29,153 nucleotides of DNA. Origin: a virus. The notes beneath the pieces are model-generated. The model worked only from the letters and a program-made list of their open reading frames with translations. It did no database searches and was not told the origin of the DNA. This document shows, piece after piece, positions 1-22,584 of the stretch; position 1 is the stretch's first letter; each line of letters begins with the position of its first letter. The position numbers were made by a program, and so were the translations under genes. Where the stretch lies: positions 1 to 29,153 of IMG/VR virus record IMGVR_UViG_3300005253_000044. One strand, 5' to 3'.

Positions 1-121
1 AGTATGTAGCTCCGGCAGTAGTTAATATTGCTATTCCATATTGGTTGCTAAATTGTGTTAGTGCATTTATATTTGCTGTACTTGAACCAACAACAATACC
101 TGTATCCAACCATCTAACAAT
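1..121. repeat. Left copy of terminal direct repeat (circular junction)
   Basis: These 121 bases are identical to the last 121 bases of the window. They lie inside the spike gene, whose frame continues across the joined ends to a proper stop. This fits an assembly overlap of a circular molecule (29,032 bp unique), or less likely a true terminal redundancy. Confidence 0.95.
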
Positions 122-3004
122 GCTAAAGCCCCAAACAGCTAAAGTTATTACAGCCATTTTAATTTCATCCTCAATTTGATTATCTCCCGACATGAAAATT
201 AACAACCCAACAATCGTTGCTAAAACAATTAGGAATTTTATAAACTCATCAAACCCATAATCATTAAATAAAGTTAGTTGTCTGAATAATGAATAATCTC
301 CAATAAATTCAGAGCCAATAAACCAAACCCTTTTAATTGTTAATGTTTCGTTGTCTGTTTGGATTATAAATTCTCCAAATAATCTTGTATTATTATCTGT
401 ATTAACTGTTCCAGAAATAAAACCCTGTCCGGCATTACTTACAAATAATCTTTGTGTAGTTGAGTTTGTTATATTCATACTTATTAAAGTAATTGTTTCT
501 CCACTTGTTACATTGAAACTAAATGTAACAATTGTGTTATTGTTTAAGCTTTCATTTGATGGTTGTATTTCATAACTTGTTCCAAGAGAAATTGTAGAAC
601 CATTAACAATAGTAATTGTTGTAGAACCCATAGTAACTGTTCTTAAATCTGTGATAGGAATAAAACTAAACACATTATCTAAAAATCCCGTTTTAGAAAA
701 AGTCGCAGTATATGTTACATCTGGATTTAAAAAGAAAACAACTAATCCAGAACCATCTGTAGTGTCTGATGTTATTGTTATTGGTGAACCAACAAGAGTT
801 CTTGTAATTGTAGCGAGAACACCAACCAGAGTATTTCCTATAGTATCTTGTGTGAAGAATTGAGTAAACAATCCAAGATTTGTTGGAAGTAGGAAAAGTT
901 GTTGTTGTGTAGTTAAATTTGTTAAAGTCGAAAATACTAAATTTGAAATTCTTTGTTGACTTTCAGGATTATTATAACTAATATTTACACTTGTTGTTAA
1001 AGTTTGATTTGGTGGATTAAAACAAAAATCATAATTAAAAGCTTCAGTTGCATTAGCATAACTTAAATCTTTTGTAACGGATCCTCCACCAAGAAAATAA
1101 GTCCATGATGAATCTATAAAGGCAGTAACATCTTCTTGATTTGTAGTTTCATTTGTAAATGTAAAATTTAAGTAAGGAATATTTTGAGGAGCTGCTTGAC
1201 AAAATGTTAAATTTATCAGACCAACACTTTGTTGTTGTGATGAAGAACTTTCTATTACACTATCAATTGTTAAATTAAATAACCATGAATTATTTCCATC
1301 TCCAGTAGGAATATCTATTGTTTGTGATATATTAAAATTATTATTACCTAAACTTGTTACTGTTGCACTTCCTTTATCAGTTCCATTATAAATTAAATTA
1401 GCACTAGATGGAGTAGAACTTGGATCGGTTGTAATATTAATTATAAATTCCTCACTTTTTGTTTCAAACGTAAATGGGTTAAATGTTTGGGAGTTTTCTA
1501 AAAAACGACTGATTGTAAAAGTTCTTGTTGTTGCTATTGAACACCCAAAACTATTACAAGATTCATAAGTCCAGTTATGATTTCCATCTGAAATTGTTTT
1601 TGTAAATAAATAATTTGTATCATTTATTCCAGAAGAATTTGTTTCATTTAAAGTCCCATCTATAAATAATGTTACATTTGTTGGACTATCAACTGTCCCA
1701 TTAAAAATTATTGTTTGATTTAAAGTACTAAAATTATCCACAGGAGAATTTAAAGTTATTATTGGAGTAAAAACATCTCTAAAAACTCTCCCCTCTCCAC
1801 CATTATACCAATCATTTAATAATTCTGTATCACTAACAGACCTATTAAGAACTGTAAATTCATCCCCTTGCATATCAGCAAAATTCACACCGCCACTTCC
1901 AGCTCCAAAAGTATTTATTCCGCTTGGAGCAACAGGAGTTCCTTCGAAATAGCTTAAATAAGTTCCATTTAATCCAAACCTTAAACCTGTCCCGTTATGA
2001 CTTAGTGTTACCATTGTAGTATCTCCAACACCAACAACTAATCCTGTTTCTCGCCATGTGCCATCAAACAATATACAATAATTAGCTACGACACAACCTT
2101 CTCCAGTAGTTCCGTATCTTGCAATCATTAGAGTATCATTTCTTGGCGTAAAAAATCTTTGATCTCCTGAAGTATCACTAACATTTATCCAAAAATTATA
2201 AGTCCAATTAAAAGTTTCATCTTGTATCCATCTGTTAAAAGTAATATCAGTATCTATTCCGTTAAAATCATAACCATTCTCAATAAACCAAGCAATAAAA
2301 CTCATATTATTAGAAGTTCCATTATTTGTATGATCAAAAACATTATCTGTATTTGTTCCAGAAGTTTCATTCATGTCATAGTGAGCTATTACATCAACTA
2401 TCATACTTTCTGTCCAAAGTGCCCACGCTGTCAATCTTTCATTCCCATAAACATTAATAATCCATTCAATTTTATCATTCTTCTTAACATCTGTAAAAAT
2501 ACCAAGAGTTATGTTTTCTGTTTTTAATAAAGAATTCTTTGTAAAATCTTTCCAAACTTGTTTTTGTTCAATATGATTTCCTGCTAATTCTTGAGAACAT
2601 TCTTCATATATCGTTCCATTAGTAGATGTTTTAATTGTACAGACATTTTTATAATCATTTACAATAACCTCTTCAAAAGTCTTATATTTATAATCAACAT
2701 TTCTAACAACCTCATTCATATTATCTTTAATATTATAAAGTTCTATTCCATTAATTATTTGGTCATAATCAAATTCTCTGTTTCTAATTTCAATCTCTGC
2801 TACTTTTTGATAACCACGAGGAACAATATTATTTTGTGGAGTTTTTAATTCTAAATCTGCAATATTCTTTCCCAATCCAAAAAAGTTTTCTAGTGTATAT
2901 ATTTTTTTATCTATATCATAACTTTTTACATCATCAAAATCAATAGCATTTACAATTCCAATTAATAAAATTGTAATAAAAATTAATAACATTAATTTTT
3001 TCAT
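1..3004 (-). CDS. Giant secreted LamG-domain spike/adhesin, N-terminal 1001 residues
   Basis: The gene runs off the window edge and continues at 29001-29032; joined, it encodes 1011 residues. The ATG overlaps the stop of the upstream gene (ATGA). A signal peptide of about 21 residues (MKKLMLLIFITILLIGIVNA) is followed by a long ectodomain full of N-x-S/T sequons. Residues about 245-405 look like a LamG/concanavalin-type jelly roll ending in LLNDWYNGGEGR. An Ig-like domain follows at about 410-500, then further beta-rich sequence. The C-terminus has hydrophobic segments at about 912-935, 945-970 and 990-1005. Inference: virion surface attachment protein, anchored by its C-terminus and made with the small membrane proteins downstream. 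By role it could match the large adhesin of fuselloviruses, but I see no direct sequence match. Confidence 0.85.
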   Translation of the reverse strand, partial: MKKLMLLIFITILLIGIVNAIDFDDVKSYDIDKKIYTLENFFGLGKNIADLELKTPQNNIVPRGYQKVAEIEIRNREFDYDQIINGIELYNIKDNMNEVVRNVDYKYKTFEEVIVNDYKNVCTIKTSTNGTIYEECSQELAGNHIEQKQVWKDFTKNSLLKTENITLGIFTDVKKNDKIEWIINVYGNERLTAWALWTESMIVDVIAHYDMNETSGTNTDNVFDHTNNGTSNNMSFIAWFIENGYDFNGIDTDITFNRWIQDETFNWTYNFWINVSDTSGDQRFFTPRNDTLMIARYGTTGEGCVVANYCILFDGTWRETGLVVGVGDTTMVTLSHNGTGLRFGLNGTYLSYFEGTPVAPSGINTFGAGSGGVNFADMQGDEFTVLNRSVSDTELLNDWYNGGEGRVFRDVFTPIITLNSPVDNFSTLNQTIIFNGTVDSPTNVTLFIDGTLNETNSSGINDTNYLFTKTISDGNHNWTYESCNSFGCSIATTRTFTISRFLENSQTFNPFTFETKSEEFIINITTDPSSTPSSANLIYNGTDKGSATVTSLGNNNFNISQTIDIPTGDGNNSWLFNLTIDSVIESSSSQQQSVGLINLTFCQAAPQNIPYLNFTFTNETTNQEDVTAFIDSSWTYFLGGGSVTKDLSYANATEAFNYDFCFNPPNQTLTTSVNISYNNPESQQRISNLVFSTLTNLTTQQQLFLLPTNLGLFTQFFTQDTIGNTLVGVLATITRTLVGSPITITSDTTDGSGLVVFFLNPDVTYTATFSKTGFLDNVFSFIPITDLRTVTMGSTTITIVNGSTISLGTSYEIQPSNESLNNNTIVTFSFNVTSGETITLISMNITNSTTQRLFVSNAGQGFISGTVNTDNNTRLFGEFIIQTDNETLTIKRVWFIGSEFIGDYSLFRQLTLFNDYGFDEFIKFLIVLATIVGLLIFMSGDNQIEDEIKMAVITLAVWGFSIVRWLDTGIVVGSSTANINALTQFSNQYGIAILTTAGATY

Positions 3005-3324
3005 GTTCGTATCCTCCTTTTCTTTGTCCAATTCTTAGCTAACCACATAACCACAAAAATCAAATAAGTACCAATAAACCAAACCATAGTTAATCCAGAT
3101 ACAAAGCAAGTTGGCCTTCTTGTTAATTTAGCAATGGTATTTCCTTCATCATTATCAAAAGCCGTTTGATTAAAGTTCACCGTTCCCCTACAGTTTAATG
3201 CGGTGGAATCTCTTGCATTATCTAAATTTTCTTTTAGAGGTTCAATCGTTACAAATGCAATTAAGATAAATACAAATACTGCTGTTAAAAGTGCGAAGCC
3301 AACCATTTGTCCACGTTTGTTCAT
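3001..3324 (-). CDS. Small two-helix membrane protein with class III-like signal
   Basis: 107 residues. The N-terminus MNKRGQMVGFALLTAVF resembles archaeal pilin-type (class III) signal peptides cut between G and Q, but the usual Glu at +5 is absent. Helices lie at about 8-28 and 79-97, with an extracellular loop carrying two Cys and one sequon. A good ribosome site (AGGAGGATTTTATCACAATG) sets the start. It is directly upstream of the spike with an ATGA overlap, so a virion membrane or assembly role is likely. No specific family recognised. Confidence 0.8.
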   Translation of the reverse strand: MNKRGQMVGFALLTAVFVFILIAFVTIEPLKENLDNARDSTALNCRGTVNFNQTAFDNDEGNTIAKLTRRPTCFVSGLTMVWFIGTYLIFVVMWLAKNWTKKRRIRT

Positions 3325-3552: not shown

Positions 3553-4056
3553 TTATGTTATTTTTTTCATCCTCAACATTTCAAATCTTTTAACTCTCAT
3601 TACCAAACTTCTATCTTTTTCAGCTCTAAACAATTTGGTAGGATCTTTTAAATTGCTTTTTGCTTTTTCAACTTGGTCTTTTAATGTTGCAAACCTAACA
3701 TTTCTTTTTGAAATAGTTGGAACTTTTCTATCTGGAACTGAAAAATCAACTTGAGTTTCTCCAGTAACATTTGAAAATACTTTATGAACTTTTAGTCTTT
3801 TGGTCTTTCCTTCTCTAACATCAAAGAAATCTCCCTTAAACTTTTTATCCAGAAACCTTTCCATATTTATTGCAGCTTTCTTTGGATTCTTTGCAAATAC
3901 ATCCCAATCAACTGTGGGTTTTCTTCCTAAGAATTTTGGGAGTTGAACATTGGTTGCCCTAGTTCCGTGAACAGTTCTCCCCGTTTTAGCGAGTCTTCCC
4001 CTTACGAATCTGTTAACCAGATTCTTGTTTCTTTCAAAGAACTTTTCTTTTGTCAT
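3553..4056 (-). CDS. Nucleotidyltransferase-fold-like basic protein
   Basis: 167 residues. Residues HGTRATN (30-36), the pair D50-W-D52 and D104 in VDFS have the order and spacing of the three-acid active site of the polymerase-beta-like nucleotidyltransferase fold (G-S/T, DxD, later D). The flanks are basic (RKPTVDWDVFAKNPKKAA) and the C-terminus FRAEKDRSLVMRV is helical. I remember similar small proteins in large DNA viruses and archaeal mobile elements, not verified. Substrate unknown. It overlaps the 859-residue gene by ATGA inside a virion operon, which is an unusual place for such an enzyme. Confidence 0.6.
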   Translation of the reverse strand: MTKEKFFERNKNLVNRFVRGRLAKTGRTVHGTRATNVQLPKFLGRKPTVDWDVFAKNPKKAAINMERFLDKKFKGDFFDVREGKTKRLKVHKVFSNVTGETQVDFSVPDRKVPTISKRNVRFATLKDQVEKAKSNLKDPTKLFRAEKDRSLVMRVKRFEMLRMKKIT

Positions 4057-6632: not shown

Positions 6633-6790
6633 TATTTCTTCTCCTTGAAAATGCGTAATTCTACAAATAGCTTATCACTAAATTTTATTGTAGGATCTAT
6701 TTTTTTCATTTCTTTTTTAGAAAGAGTTACAGATGCTTGTTTAGTTTTCTTGTTAACAAAAACTTTTCTAATCATAGACTTATTAGACAT
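6632..6790 (-). CDS. 52-residue basic protein, first gene of virion block II
   Basis: MSNKSMIRKVFVNKKTKQA and so on: short, basic, probably beta-rich (VFVNKKTKQASVTLSKKEM). The pattern is weakly like AbrB-type swapped-hairpin DNA-binding domains. An AAGGAG site precedes the ATG and the TAA overlaps the next ATG (TAATG). As the first gene behind the palindromic promoter it could regulate that promoter or be a minor virion protein; both are inference. Confidence 0.65.
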   Translation of the reverse strand: MSNKSMIRKVFVNKKTKQASVTLSKKEMKKIDPTIKFSDKLFVELRIFKEKK

Positions 6791-6807
6791 TTTTACTAGC
6801 TCCTTAT

Positions 6808-20554: not shown

Positions 20555-20761
20555 CCTTGCCTTACTCTACCCAACCAAACCACACTACACCTAACACTTC
20601 CGGGCTAAACAGTGAACATGATTCCTTACCTCGCCATACCCCACACAACCACACACTACAAGACACATCCAGACTTTGCAGCGAATATGATTCCTCACCA
20701 TACCTAACCATAACGTACCGCACACCACCGAACCTGACCCGACCAAACAGTAAATATTATT
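20555..20761. repeat. Pentamer-phased repeat array A (three 69-bp units)
   Basis: Units start at 20555, 20624 and 20693, each exactly 69 bp: eleven pentamers beginning with C (CCTTA, CCTCG, CCATA, CCCCA...) then a 14-bp AT-rich spacer (CAGTGAACATGATT, CAGCGAATATGATT, CAGTAAATATTATT). The pentamers differ between units, but the 5-base phase does not. The plus strand is C/A-rich, the minus strand G/T-rich. It lies between the RAMP-like gene and the accessory operon. Not coding: other units of this family break any frame. Confidence 0.85.
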
Positions 20762-21315
20762 TATTCTACCCACTTAGTAATTTTAAACTTTCCAAAATTA
20801 CCTGTTTTTTGTGGACGAAAATCAAGTAGGCCAACTCTCTTACCAGCTTCTTCTAATATTTCTTTTATAATTTCAGGATTTCCAATAAGTGTTTCATCAT
20901 ATTCAATTTCAAAACTTACTTTCCAATTATCAATTTTTGGTCTTACTTTAACAACTCTATTTCTTTGAATCACAACTGTTCTTATATCCAAAGAATATTT
21001 TTTAATCCCAAGACCAACCTGACTTGGTACTATCTGAACACCACCAGCAATAATTGGTTTTGCACTATACTTACCAATCTTTTTCCATGATGAAGCTCCA
21101 ACTAAACTTCCTTTAATAGCTTCAGAAGAAATATAAAGTTCACCGTTTGATTTCTTATAAGCAAGTTTGTCTGCTTCCTTTTCCACTTCAGCTCTAGTTC
21201 TTGTTTTCATACGAACAGCTTTTTTTACATTACCAACTGCTTCTTCAATCATTGAAGCCGGATTATTCATTAAGAGAGGTGTTTCTCCTTTTATTTCTAC
21301 TTTTATTTTTTTCAT
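20761..21315 (-). CDS. RAMP/Cas7-like nucleic-acid-binding protein
   Basis: 184 residues. The N-terminal strand with TPLLM (12-16) and LYISSEAIKGSLVGA (60-74) resemble the first strand and the 'IPGSSLKGALR' loop of RAMP (Cas7/Cas5-like, RRM-fold) proteins. RTVVIQRNRVVKVRP (112-126) and VGLLDFRPQKTGNFGKFKI (161-179) are conserved in phage proteins I remember, without assigned function. No catalytic residues are evident. Repeat arrays flank it on both sides, and its stop touches array A. Inference: it binds single-stranded nucleic acid as an oligomer, perhaps these arrays. Alternative: a phage single-strand-binding or annealing protein. Confidence 0.6.
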   Translation of the reverse strand: MKKIKVEIKGETPLLMNNPASMIEEAVGNVKKAVRMKTRTRAEVEKEADKLAYKKSNGELYISSEAIKGSLVGASSWKKIGKYSAKPIIAGGVQIVPSQVGLGIKKYSLDIRTVVIQRNRVVKVRPKIDNWKVSFEIEYDETLIGNPEIIKEILEEAGKRVGLLDFRPQKTGNFGKFKITKWVE

Positions 21316-21343
21316 TTTATTTTTTATTTATTTAATTCAATAA

Positions 21344-21356
21344 CGAGGAAACCTCG
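21344..21356. other. CGAGG-AAA-CCTCG hairpin at the edge of array B
   Basis: A 5-bp perfect stem with a three-base loop. Its right arm is the first pentamer of array B. In the minus direction it follows the array and precedes the RAMP-like gene, so it could end or protect an array transcript. Confidence 0.45.
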
Positions 21357-21622
21357 CCTTACCGAACCTTGCTCAACCCAACAATACAACACAACGCTAA
21401 ACCAGTCCTTGTAAATATGAATACCTTACCTCGCCGCACATGACCGCACTCTACCCCACCAAACATTGAATATGAACCTTACCACACATTACATAACGCT
21501 ACCGAACAGTGCAGAACAACACAACAAATATGAATATCATTAAATTACCTTACCAAGCCACTCCCCGCAACACCACACACCGCCCCGCACAACAAAGCCC
21601 CACAGTGAATATGATTAAATTA
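21352..21622. repeat. Pentamer-phased repeat array B (four units)
   Basis: Units start at 21352 (12 pentamers, 72 bp), 21424 (8, 53 bp), 21477 (10, 71 bp) and 21548 (11 pentamers plus a 20-bp spacer). Every pentamer begins with C. Spacers are related to array A (CATTGAATATGAA, CAGTGAATATGATTAAATTA). The unequal unit lengths change by whole pentamers, which shows that the 5-base step is the element under selection. The last spacer runs into the stop codon of the ParB-like gene. Confidence 0.85.
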
Positions 21623-22301
21623 AACTTCTTAATTTGTTGAGTAAATCATTTACTTTTTTATTTGATGTATCTAAAAAACCTCCTTCAATTAATTTAATTA
21701 ATGTTGAAAGTAATTCAGCTTGATCTCTTACATAAATTTCTTTTTGCGTTGTCTTTATTGCAGCAAAATCTTTCTTATTAAATTTATTTCCGGCAAGATG
21801 TTTAAAGGCACTTTTTACAACAACACTTCTATCAACAAGAGTATCTCCAGTAGTAGCACTTATTAATCTTTGACCAATAAAATCTTCAAGTTTATCAAAA
21901 GGAACTTGTATAAGTTGGCTTACTTCTTTTAAATTATATTTCATATTCCTTAATCTAAGTGCTATATTTCTTTTTTCATAAGGACTTAAAGGTCTTCCAT
22001 GTTGAATGTTTCTGGTGATTGCTTCTTCAAACATTCTTTGATAATTCCATCCAGTATAAACTTCTGCAAGAATTGTTTTCTTCTTCAATATTTTATTTGC
22101 TTCAAATCTATGTCTTCCATCAATAAGAACTAATCTTCTTTTATATAAAGCAACAACAATTGGTGGGAACTTACTCCCAACTTTCATAGATTCAGAATAA
22201 TCATAACCCGTCTGCCAACTATATTGACTTCTTGGATAAATCTTTTCATCAAACTTGATTTGTTTCAATTCAATGTTTTTTAAAGTTTTTCTTACACTCA
22301 T
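21615..22301 (-). CDS. ParB/Srx-like DNA-binding protein
   Basis: 228 residues. LVLIDGRHRFEA (57-68) is the ParB/sulfiredoxin-fold signature, and RNIQHGRPLSPYEKRNIALR (98-117) matches the following conserved box. A helix-turn-helix follows at about 120-140 (NLKEVSQLIQVPFDKLEDFI). The C-terminus is helical. The family includes partition proteins (CTP-dependent clamps) and plasmid/phage regulators; no ParA-type ATPase is present. Array B and a two-pentamer stub at its promoter make these repeats candidate binding sites. Whether it partitions or regulates cannot be told. Confidence 0.8.
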   Translation of the reverse strand: MSVRKTLKNIELKQIKFDEKIYPRSQYSWQTGYDYSESMKVGSKFPPIVVALYKRRLVLIDGRHRFEANKILKKKTILAEVYTGWNYQRMFEEAITRNIQHGRPLSPYEKRNIALRLRNMKYNLKEVSQLIQVPFDKLEDFIGQRLISATTGDTLVDRSVVVKSAFKHLAGNKFNKKDFAAIKTTQKEIYVRDQAELLSTLIKLIEGGFLDTSNKKVNDLLNKLRSLI

Positions 22302-22323: not shown

Positions 22324-22333
22324 CCTTACCCTT
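22324..22333. repeat. Two-pentamer stub and TATA element before the ParB-like gene
   Basis: CCTTA CCCTT follows ATTAATATTA, like the start of an array unit. On the minus strand this lies next to ATATATAAAG (22330-22339), a likely TATA element for the ParB-like gene, so binding here could give autoregulation. Confidence 0.4.
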
Positions 22334-22584
22334 TATATATCTTTAGGTTTTTGGGGGTTCGTGTGGAAATAGAGTCTATTCCTAATATTTCTCTTTTTTG
22401 GATGTAATTTGGTGTGTTCTCCTCGTGAAACCATTTGAAGATTCTCTATTCTATTATCTTTTCTTTCTCTATTGATATGGTGAATTATTTTTCCATTGGG
22501 AATTTTCCCATAATGTTCCTCCCAAATCAATCTATGTTTAAGAACTGTTTTTCCTTTTTTTGATGTGGTATTATAATCTGACAT
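22333..22584 (-). CDS. HNH endonuclease (homing-type)
   Basis: 83 residues. NGKIIHHINRERKDNRIENL (30-49) is a classic HNH core: H35-H36, N38, D43-N44, N48-L49, then H57 and H61. It is shorter than most homing nucleases and has no separate DNA-binding module. Free-standing viral HNH proteins are often mobile or assist packaging. It is the neighbour of the structured non-coding segment at 22601-22830, transcribed away from it. Confidence 0.85.
   Translation of the reverse strand: MSDYNTTSKKGKTVLKHRLIWEEHYGKIPNGKIIHHINRERKDNRIENLQMVSRGEHTKLHPKKRNIRNRLYFHTNPQKPKDI
22569..22577 (+). promoter_or_regulatory. Possible TATA element for the structured RNA
   Basis: TATTATAAT lies about 27 bases before 22600, where the structured segment begins, the usual archaeal spacing. 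It overlaps the 5' end of the HNH gene on the other strand. Confidence 0.35.

Follow-up and report, generated by a model that had tools for sequence, protein, structure and literature searches.

The window, the whole 29,153-nucleotide stretch of virus DNA that was analysed (IMG/VR record IMGVR_UViG_3300005253_000044), carries on its minus strand a gene for a RAMP protein (20761-21315), flanked by two intergenic stretches, 20555-20752 and 21352-21607, that hold seven units built of pentamers. Unit boundaries were taken from a state-model segmentation. The parts of the locus, with the basis of each assignment, are the following.

21615-22301, minus strand: ParB-like (ParB/Srx domain) protein, candidate accessory (vap) gene (phrog_1033, TIGR00180)
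21608-21618, minus strand: leader element AATCATATT ahead of unit 1 (sequence)
21548-21607, minus strand: vrRNA-like unit 1, 12 pentamers, first of the upstream array (segmentation)
21477-21526, minus strand: vrRNA-like unit 2, 10 pentamers (segmentation, decoding)
21424-21468, minus strand: vrRNA-like unit 3, 9 pentamers (segmentation)
21352-21411, minus strand: vrRNA-like unit 4, 12 pentamers, with a terminal short hairpin CGAGG-TTT-CCTCG (segmentation, folding)
20761-21315, minus strand: vipr, RAMP (Cas7/Csm3-like) protein of 184 aa, phrog_4652 (homology and predicted fold)
20693-20752, minus strand: vrRNA-like unit 5, 12 pentamers (segmentation, decoding)
20624-20683, minus strand: vrRNA-like unit 6, 12 pentamers (segmentation, decoding)
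20555-20614, minus strand: vrRNA-like unit 7, 12 pentamers, last of the downstream array (segmentation)

On the plus strand, C recurs at every fifth base in runs of 12, 12, 7, 12, 9, 10 and 12, which start at 20555, 20624, 20718, 21352, 21424, 21477 and 21548, respectively. No comparable runs of C or G were observed at the other lags from 2 to 9. At lag 5, 111 C-C pairs were counted compared with 57.1 ± 5.1 in 2000 dinucleotide shuffles (maximum 72), and the five-base phase proposed in an earlier sequence-only reading of this DNA stands almost as written. C-C pairs were likewise raised at lags 10 and 15 and at none of the remaining lags. The segmentation yielded units of 12, 12, 12, 12, 9, 10 and 12 pentamers (79 in total); read on the minus strand, 78 of the 79 end in G and 75 start with a pyrimidine. 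An earlier hand count of 74 pentamers, 73 with C at the beginning and 70 with A or G at the end, was essentially right but slightly short, and the unit sizes given with it (8, 10, 11 and 12) have to be replaced by 9, 10 and 12. A scan of both strands of the whole window showed no further pentamer tract outside the seven units.

Base composition was determined for the 58 internal pentamers on the minus strand. Position 1 is T in 78% and C in 16%. Positions 2 and 3 vary freely, with 1.9 bits each; at position 4, G makes up 53%, T 33%, A 12% and C 2%; and position 5 is G in 98%. The scaffold in the window is YNNDG. The middle bases had been described as varying freely, which holds for positions 2 and 3 but not for position 4, restricted to G, T or A. 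The AT-rich spacer noticed near CAGTGAATATGATT is real and corresponds to a YATATT element; it had been placed after the unit, but on the minus strand it precedes each one, and leaders of the YATATT, AATATT or CATGTT type were found ahead of all seven units. Six of the seven units folded no better than shuffled sequences, the exception being unit 4 (z −2.2), and a common structured 3′ tail was looked for in the seven units and found to be absent. An Rfam search gave no match, and the arrays lack CRISPR repeats. Promoter-like sites were fewer than in shuffles in a bacterial promoter scan, a scan for bacterial terminators found none, and no tRNA was detected in the window. Elsewhere in the window, the segment 22585-22850, between an HNH gene (22333-22584) and a methyltransferase gene, contains a purine-rich run and overlapping doubtful short ORFs but no array. 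An Asn/Thr-rich ORF of at least 1010 aa (2-3031, minus strand) extends past the window end; its product is probably a secreted or virion-surface protein.

The product of 20761-21315 matches phrog_4652 (E 4e-20), a family of unknown function in that library. The solved Vipr of SUSP1 (PDB 36pp) matched the window protein with E 8.5e-5 in a single-sequence phmmer comparison and with E 3.5e-58 when a seven-sequence family profile was applied. The AlphaFold (AF2) model of the protein, with a pLDDT of 83, was closest to Csm3/Cas7 chains in the PDB (best E 1.7e-5, probability 1.0). Among ten window proteins scanned, Vipr was the sole Cas-like match. The ParB-like neighbor was assigned by phrog_1033 (E 7e-10) and TIGR00180 (E 3e-4), and L001, a virus contig of 57 kb, has a homologue of it (33% identity, E 5e-44) next to vipr as well. 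In most phages the second small gene after vipr is phrog_5926, present in 7 of 9 relatives tested; the vipr neighbor in the window is a different gene.

Homologues of phrog_4652 were found in Pseudomonas, Vibrio/Listonella, Gordonia, Mycobacterium, Escherichia and Salmonella phages as well as in proteobacterial prophages or chromosomes. Sixteen other loci (L001 and L003-L017) were examined, and in all 16 tracts with the five-base phase adjoin phrog_4652 on the same strand. The sequence-only reading had named related loci lacking the phase as evidence against itself; its view that phase rather than sequence is conserved, and that array and RAMP-like gene form one system, is borne out by these loci. 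The context of the cassette varies widely, from head or tail gene clusters to a DNA ligase or a ParB-like neighbor, and in some relatives it lies on the strand opposite to the head and tail gene clusters. The RAMP protein of L001 is 54% identical to that of the window and its array has the same pattern; a search of viral contigs for further relatives of the window clade found the L001 contig alone. At pentamer position 4, G amounts to 78% in Felixounaviruses and to 91-93% in Pseudomonas-type, actinophage and DSL-LC04 loci. In the window, and likewise in five of the six other groups, entropy is maximal at positions 2-3. In phage wV8 and VpaE1, 97.4% of the vipr-vap DNA is shared and the flanks are the same, whereas the guide dinucleotide series differ, which fits guide turnover.

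Several relatives showed local peculiarities. The phiHSIC-type loci (L004:4652-4890 and L008:2341-3302) have a constant CA..G with the free dinucleotide at positions 3-4, in a shifted register. The array at L001:6494-6817 contains a tRNA-Ile gene (6724-6800), which is preceded by the TTTCATATTCA leader of the units and followed by more pentamer-like sequence up to the contig end. In wV8, deposited DR_4 repeats (L011:2259-2316 and 3652-3709) overlap the constant flanks of the vrRNA units. The tract L005:3626-3695 opens with CTTAGTGGGG, and directly after it stands CCCCACTAAG, the reverse complement of CTTAGTGGGG, suggesting a long-range stem that may close the unit. The unit at L013:2853-2932 contains five consecutive identical CAAGG pentamers, so part of this guide is without distinctive information.

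A 2026 preprint from the Doudna group (PMC13142463) describes VIPR (Viral Interference Programmable Repeat) as a phage RAMP protein, Vipr, acting with vrRNAs of 9-16 YNNGG repeats, whose NN dinucleotides recognise dsDNA with a one-base skip, and by which competing elements are repressed. Seven types, forms with "a related consensus" and archaeal viruses are mentioned there, and the type II vrRNAs (SUSP1, P. fulva) are given an invariable structured 3′ tail (PMC13142463). The window locus resembles the type II systems (SUSP1, P. fulva; PDB 36pp) in its homologous RAMP protein, viral carrier and several guides per locus, and shares with VIPR the pentamers, constant in G and Y and free in NN, that flank vipr on the same strand. 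Its 9, 10 or 12 repeats per unit lie inside the range of 9-16. In contrast, the fourth base is relaxed in the window, where type II has GG; the structured 3′ tail of type II is absent and a short YATATT leader is present; and the partner of vipr is a ParB-like gene instead of the usual phrog_5926. Considering the seven types, the related consensus and the archaeal viruses of the preprint, these differences may already be covered, and the window locus may be one of the other published VIPR types.

The one-base skip was investigated in L013, a Pseudomonas prophage relative. A search of 299 Pseudomonas genomes, allowing two mismatches, was made with the pattern AGNTCNGCNAG... of its guide L013:2409-2463 (AGNTCNGC...). 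Two matches were obtained (L266 and L267), both 20/20 over the first ten dinucleotides, compared with an estimated chance expectation of ~0.003 for exact 20-base matches; the reversed-pattern control gave no match in the same 299 genomes. The two mismatches of each match are confined to the final dinucleotide, contributed by the constant CAAGG repeat, suggesting that this terminal repeat is outside the guide. Both matches are located in a prophage gene for the major capsid protein (PF05065, E 2.6e-34), where the target reads RNLVTILAEL and the skipped base is the wobble position. A second L013 guide matches, in codon register and in two genomes, the sequence VWDHCPQNC in a phage protein whose N terminus is antirepressor-like; this match is weaker because its control also gave two matches. 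The 1-nt skip rule is thus confirmed independently in this relative.

The guides of the window were decoded by the same rule. Read in codon register, unit 6 (20624-20683) gives [FL]S[IM]P[HQ]TL[RS][HQ][RS][FL]A on the reverse strand and unit 5 (20693-20752) gives T[FL]R[HQ]SGAT[IM]Y[IM][DE] in the forward direction. Both fit HxLRHxxAT, which we take to be the box II motif of tyrosine recombinases. When dinucleotides were shuffled among the guides 60,000 times, the box II form arose 0 times for unit 6, 8 times for unit 5 and in no shuffle for two guides at once, odds that are only suggestive and overstate the weight of the match, since the motif was recognised post hoc. Unit 2 (21477-21526) decodes in reverse as [FL]T[FL]YL[DE]V[DE]TT, which resembles motif I of DEDD/PolB exonucleases. 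The decoded peptides are too short to be scored against Pfam and PDB profiles.

Targets of the window guides were searched in viral contigs. Exact 20-base searches found none, a 16-base search gave one chance match, and matches to 14-base cores were mostly due to chance. The recombinase of contig L172, with the sequence LLRHSGATLFLE, agrees at 19 of 24 bases, no better than the chance matches of that scan. The tyrosine recombinase of L001 was rejected as a target, its box II (HTFRKTHGNWL) being mismatched, and so was self-targeting of the virus or of L001, for which the best match outside the units themselves (~15/20) was not above chance. Since the exact searches gave nothing convincing, the targets of the window guides are presumptive; the likeliest are tyrosine-recombinase genes of rival elements. 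The virus has no tyrosine recombinase family but carries a serine recombinase, which is consistent with a target in another element.

Taken with the anatomy and phase of the arrays, the homology and fold of the RAMP protein, the conserved arrangement and the skip rule observed in a relative, the locus is very probably a VIPR-type viral RNA-guided interference locus. VIPR as a kind has already been described in 2026, and the window locus is a divergent member, its guides decoded but unproven. Expression, RNP assembly and targets in the window virus we infer along the following lines. Transcription of both intergenic arrays on the minus strand would yield seven guide RNAs (vrRNAs), each of which would comprise a tract with 9-12 pentamers of the form YNNDG. 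Judging from the homologues, subunits of the RAMP protein (20761-21315) would assemble along the tract and hold each pentamer by its constant bases, G and pyrimidine, while the free dinucleotide (positions 2-3) would pair with target dsDNA, leaving one unpaired target base between dinucleotides. The skipped base would usually be the wobble position of a codon, so the guide would read a short peptide motif. Binding of the guide would repress or block genes of competing mobile elements.

It is very unlikely that the locus derives from a VIPR system but no longer targets, its arrays serving only to regulate its own genes or to sequester the RAMP protein. The relaxed fourth base, the absent structured tail and the empty target searches would fit such a loss, but all seven units strictly retain the G phase and the pyrimidine, the dinucleotides are unique to each unit and decode to plausible protein motifs, and, the units aside, no match exceeds ~15/20 in the window and L001. 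A DNA element, with the tracts serving as an origin of replication or a partition site where the RAMP or the ParB-like protein would read ssDNA or dsDNA much as at DnaA-trios or ParB sites, is extremely improbable, because the AT-rich leaders beside GT-rich tracts and the ParB-like gene adjoining the array in the window and L001 are outweighed by the same arrays next to phrog_4652 in phages whose replication systems are unrelated, often within structural gene clusters and without a ParB neighbor, by the variable dinucleotides that match rival phage genes in L013, and by seven units of different sequence that an origin does not need.

The earlier suggestions of origin opening or segregation give way to the occurrence of the same cassette in unrelated gene contexts. 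DnaA-trios are likewise short repeats in which the phase is conserved and a single base is strongly fixed, and a multimer reads them, but they have a period of three, act at the DNA level and lie in chromosomal origins beside DnaA boxes, none of which applies to the window; here the period is five, lag 3 is not raised and the arrays follow vipr, not origins, so the proposed analogy fails. A guide-RNA-like use and a multimeric RAMP protein on a repeating scaffold, also anticipated, agree with the homologues, which perform RNA-guided DNA recognition via variable dinucleotides; a protein that reads single-stranded DNA is not supported. The Cas7/Csm3 backbone of Class 1 CRISPR-Cas shares the RAMP fold and, by inference, the multimer on a guide RNA with periodically interrupted pairing, whereas the window has no CRISPR repeats or spacers, a period of five with a fixed base and a minimal two-gene locus. 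TIGR-Tas systems of phages and prokaryotes also have compact arrays with short split guides, but with a Nop-domain protein and 36-nt tigRNAs in place of the RAMP protein and pentamers.

Within the VIPR reading, we consider it possible, if tentative, that the locus is a variant from an apparently archaeal virus, with a relaxed YNNDG, short leaders replacing structured tails, a ParB-like accessory and several guides against conserved catalytic motifs (tyrosine-recombinase box II, exonuclease), so that one guide could act on many rivals. An archaeal, DPANN-like host is only suggested, by a single feature, the KRGQ N terminus of a membrane protein. With the window, the known VIPR loci gain a divergent member whose seven guides are readable, and the prediction of real prophage targets by the noncontiguous code in a relative is an independent demonstration of that code. 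If the integrase decoding holds, the wobble skip would let guides strike those residues of rival proteins that tolerate mutation least, and guide sets that are fixed and non-adaptive could generally remain effective in this way.
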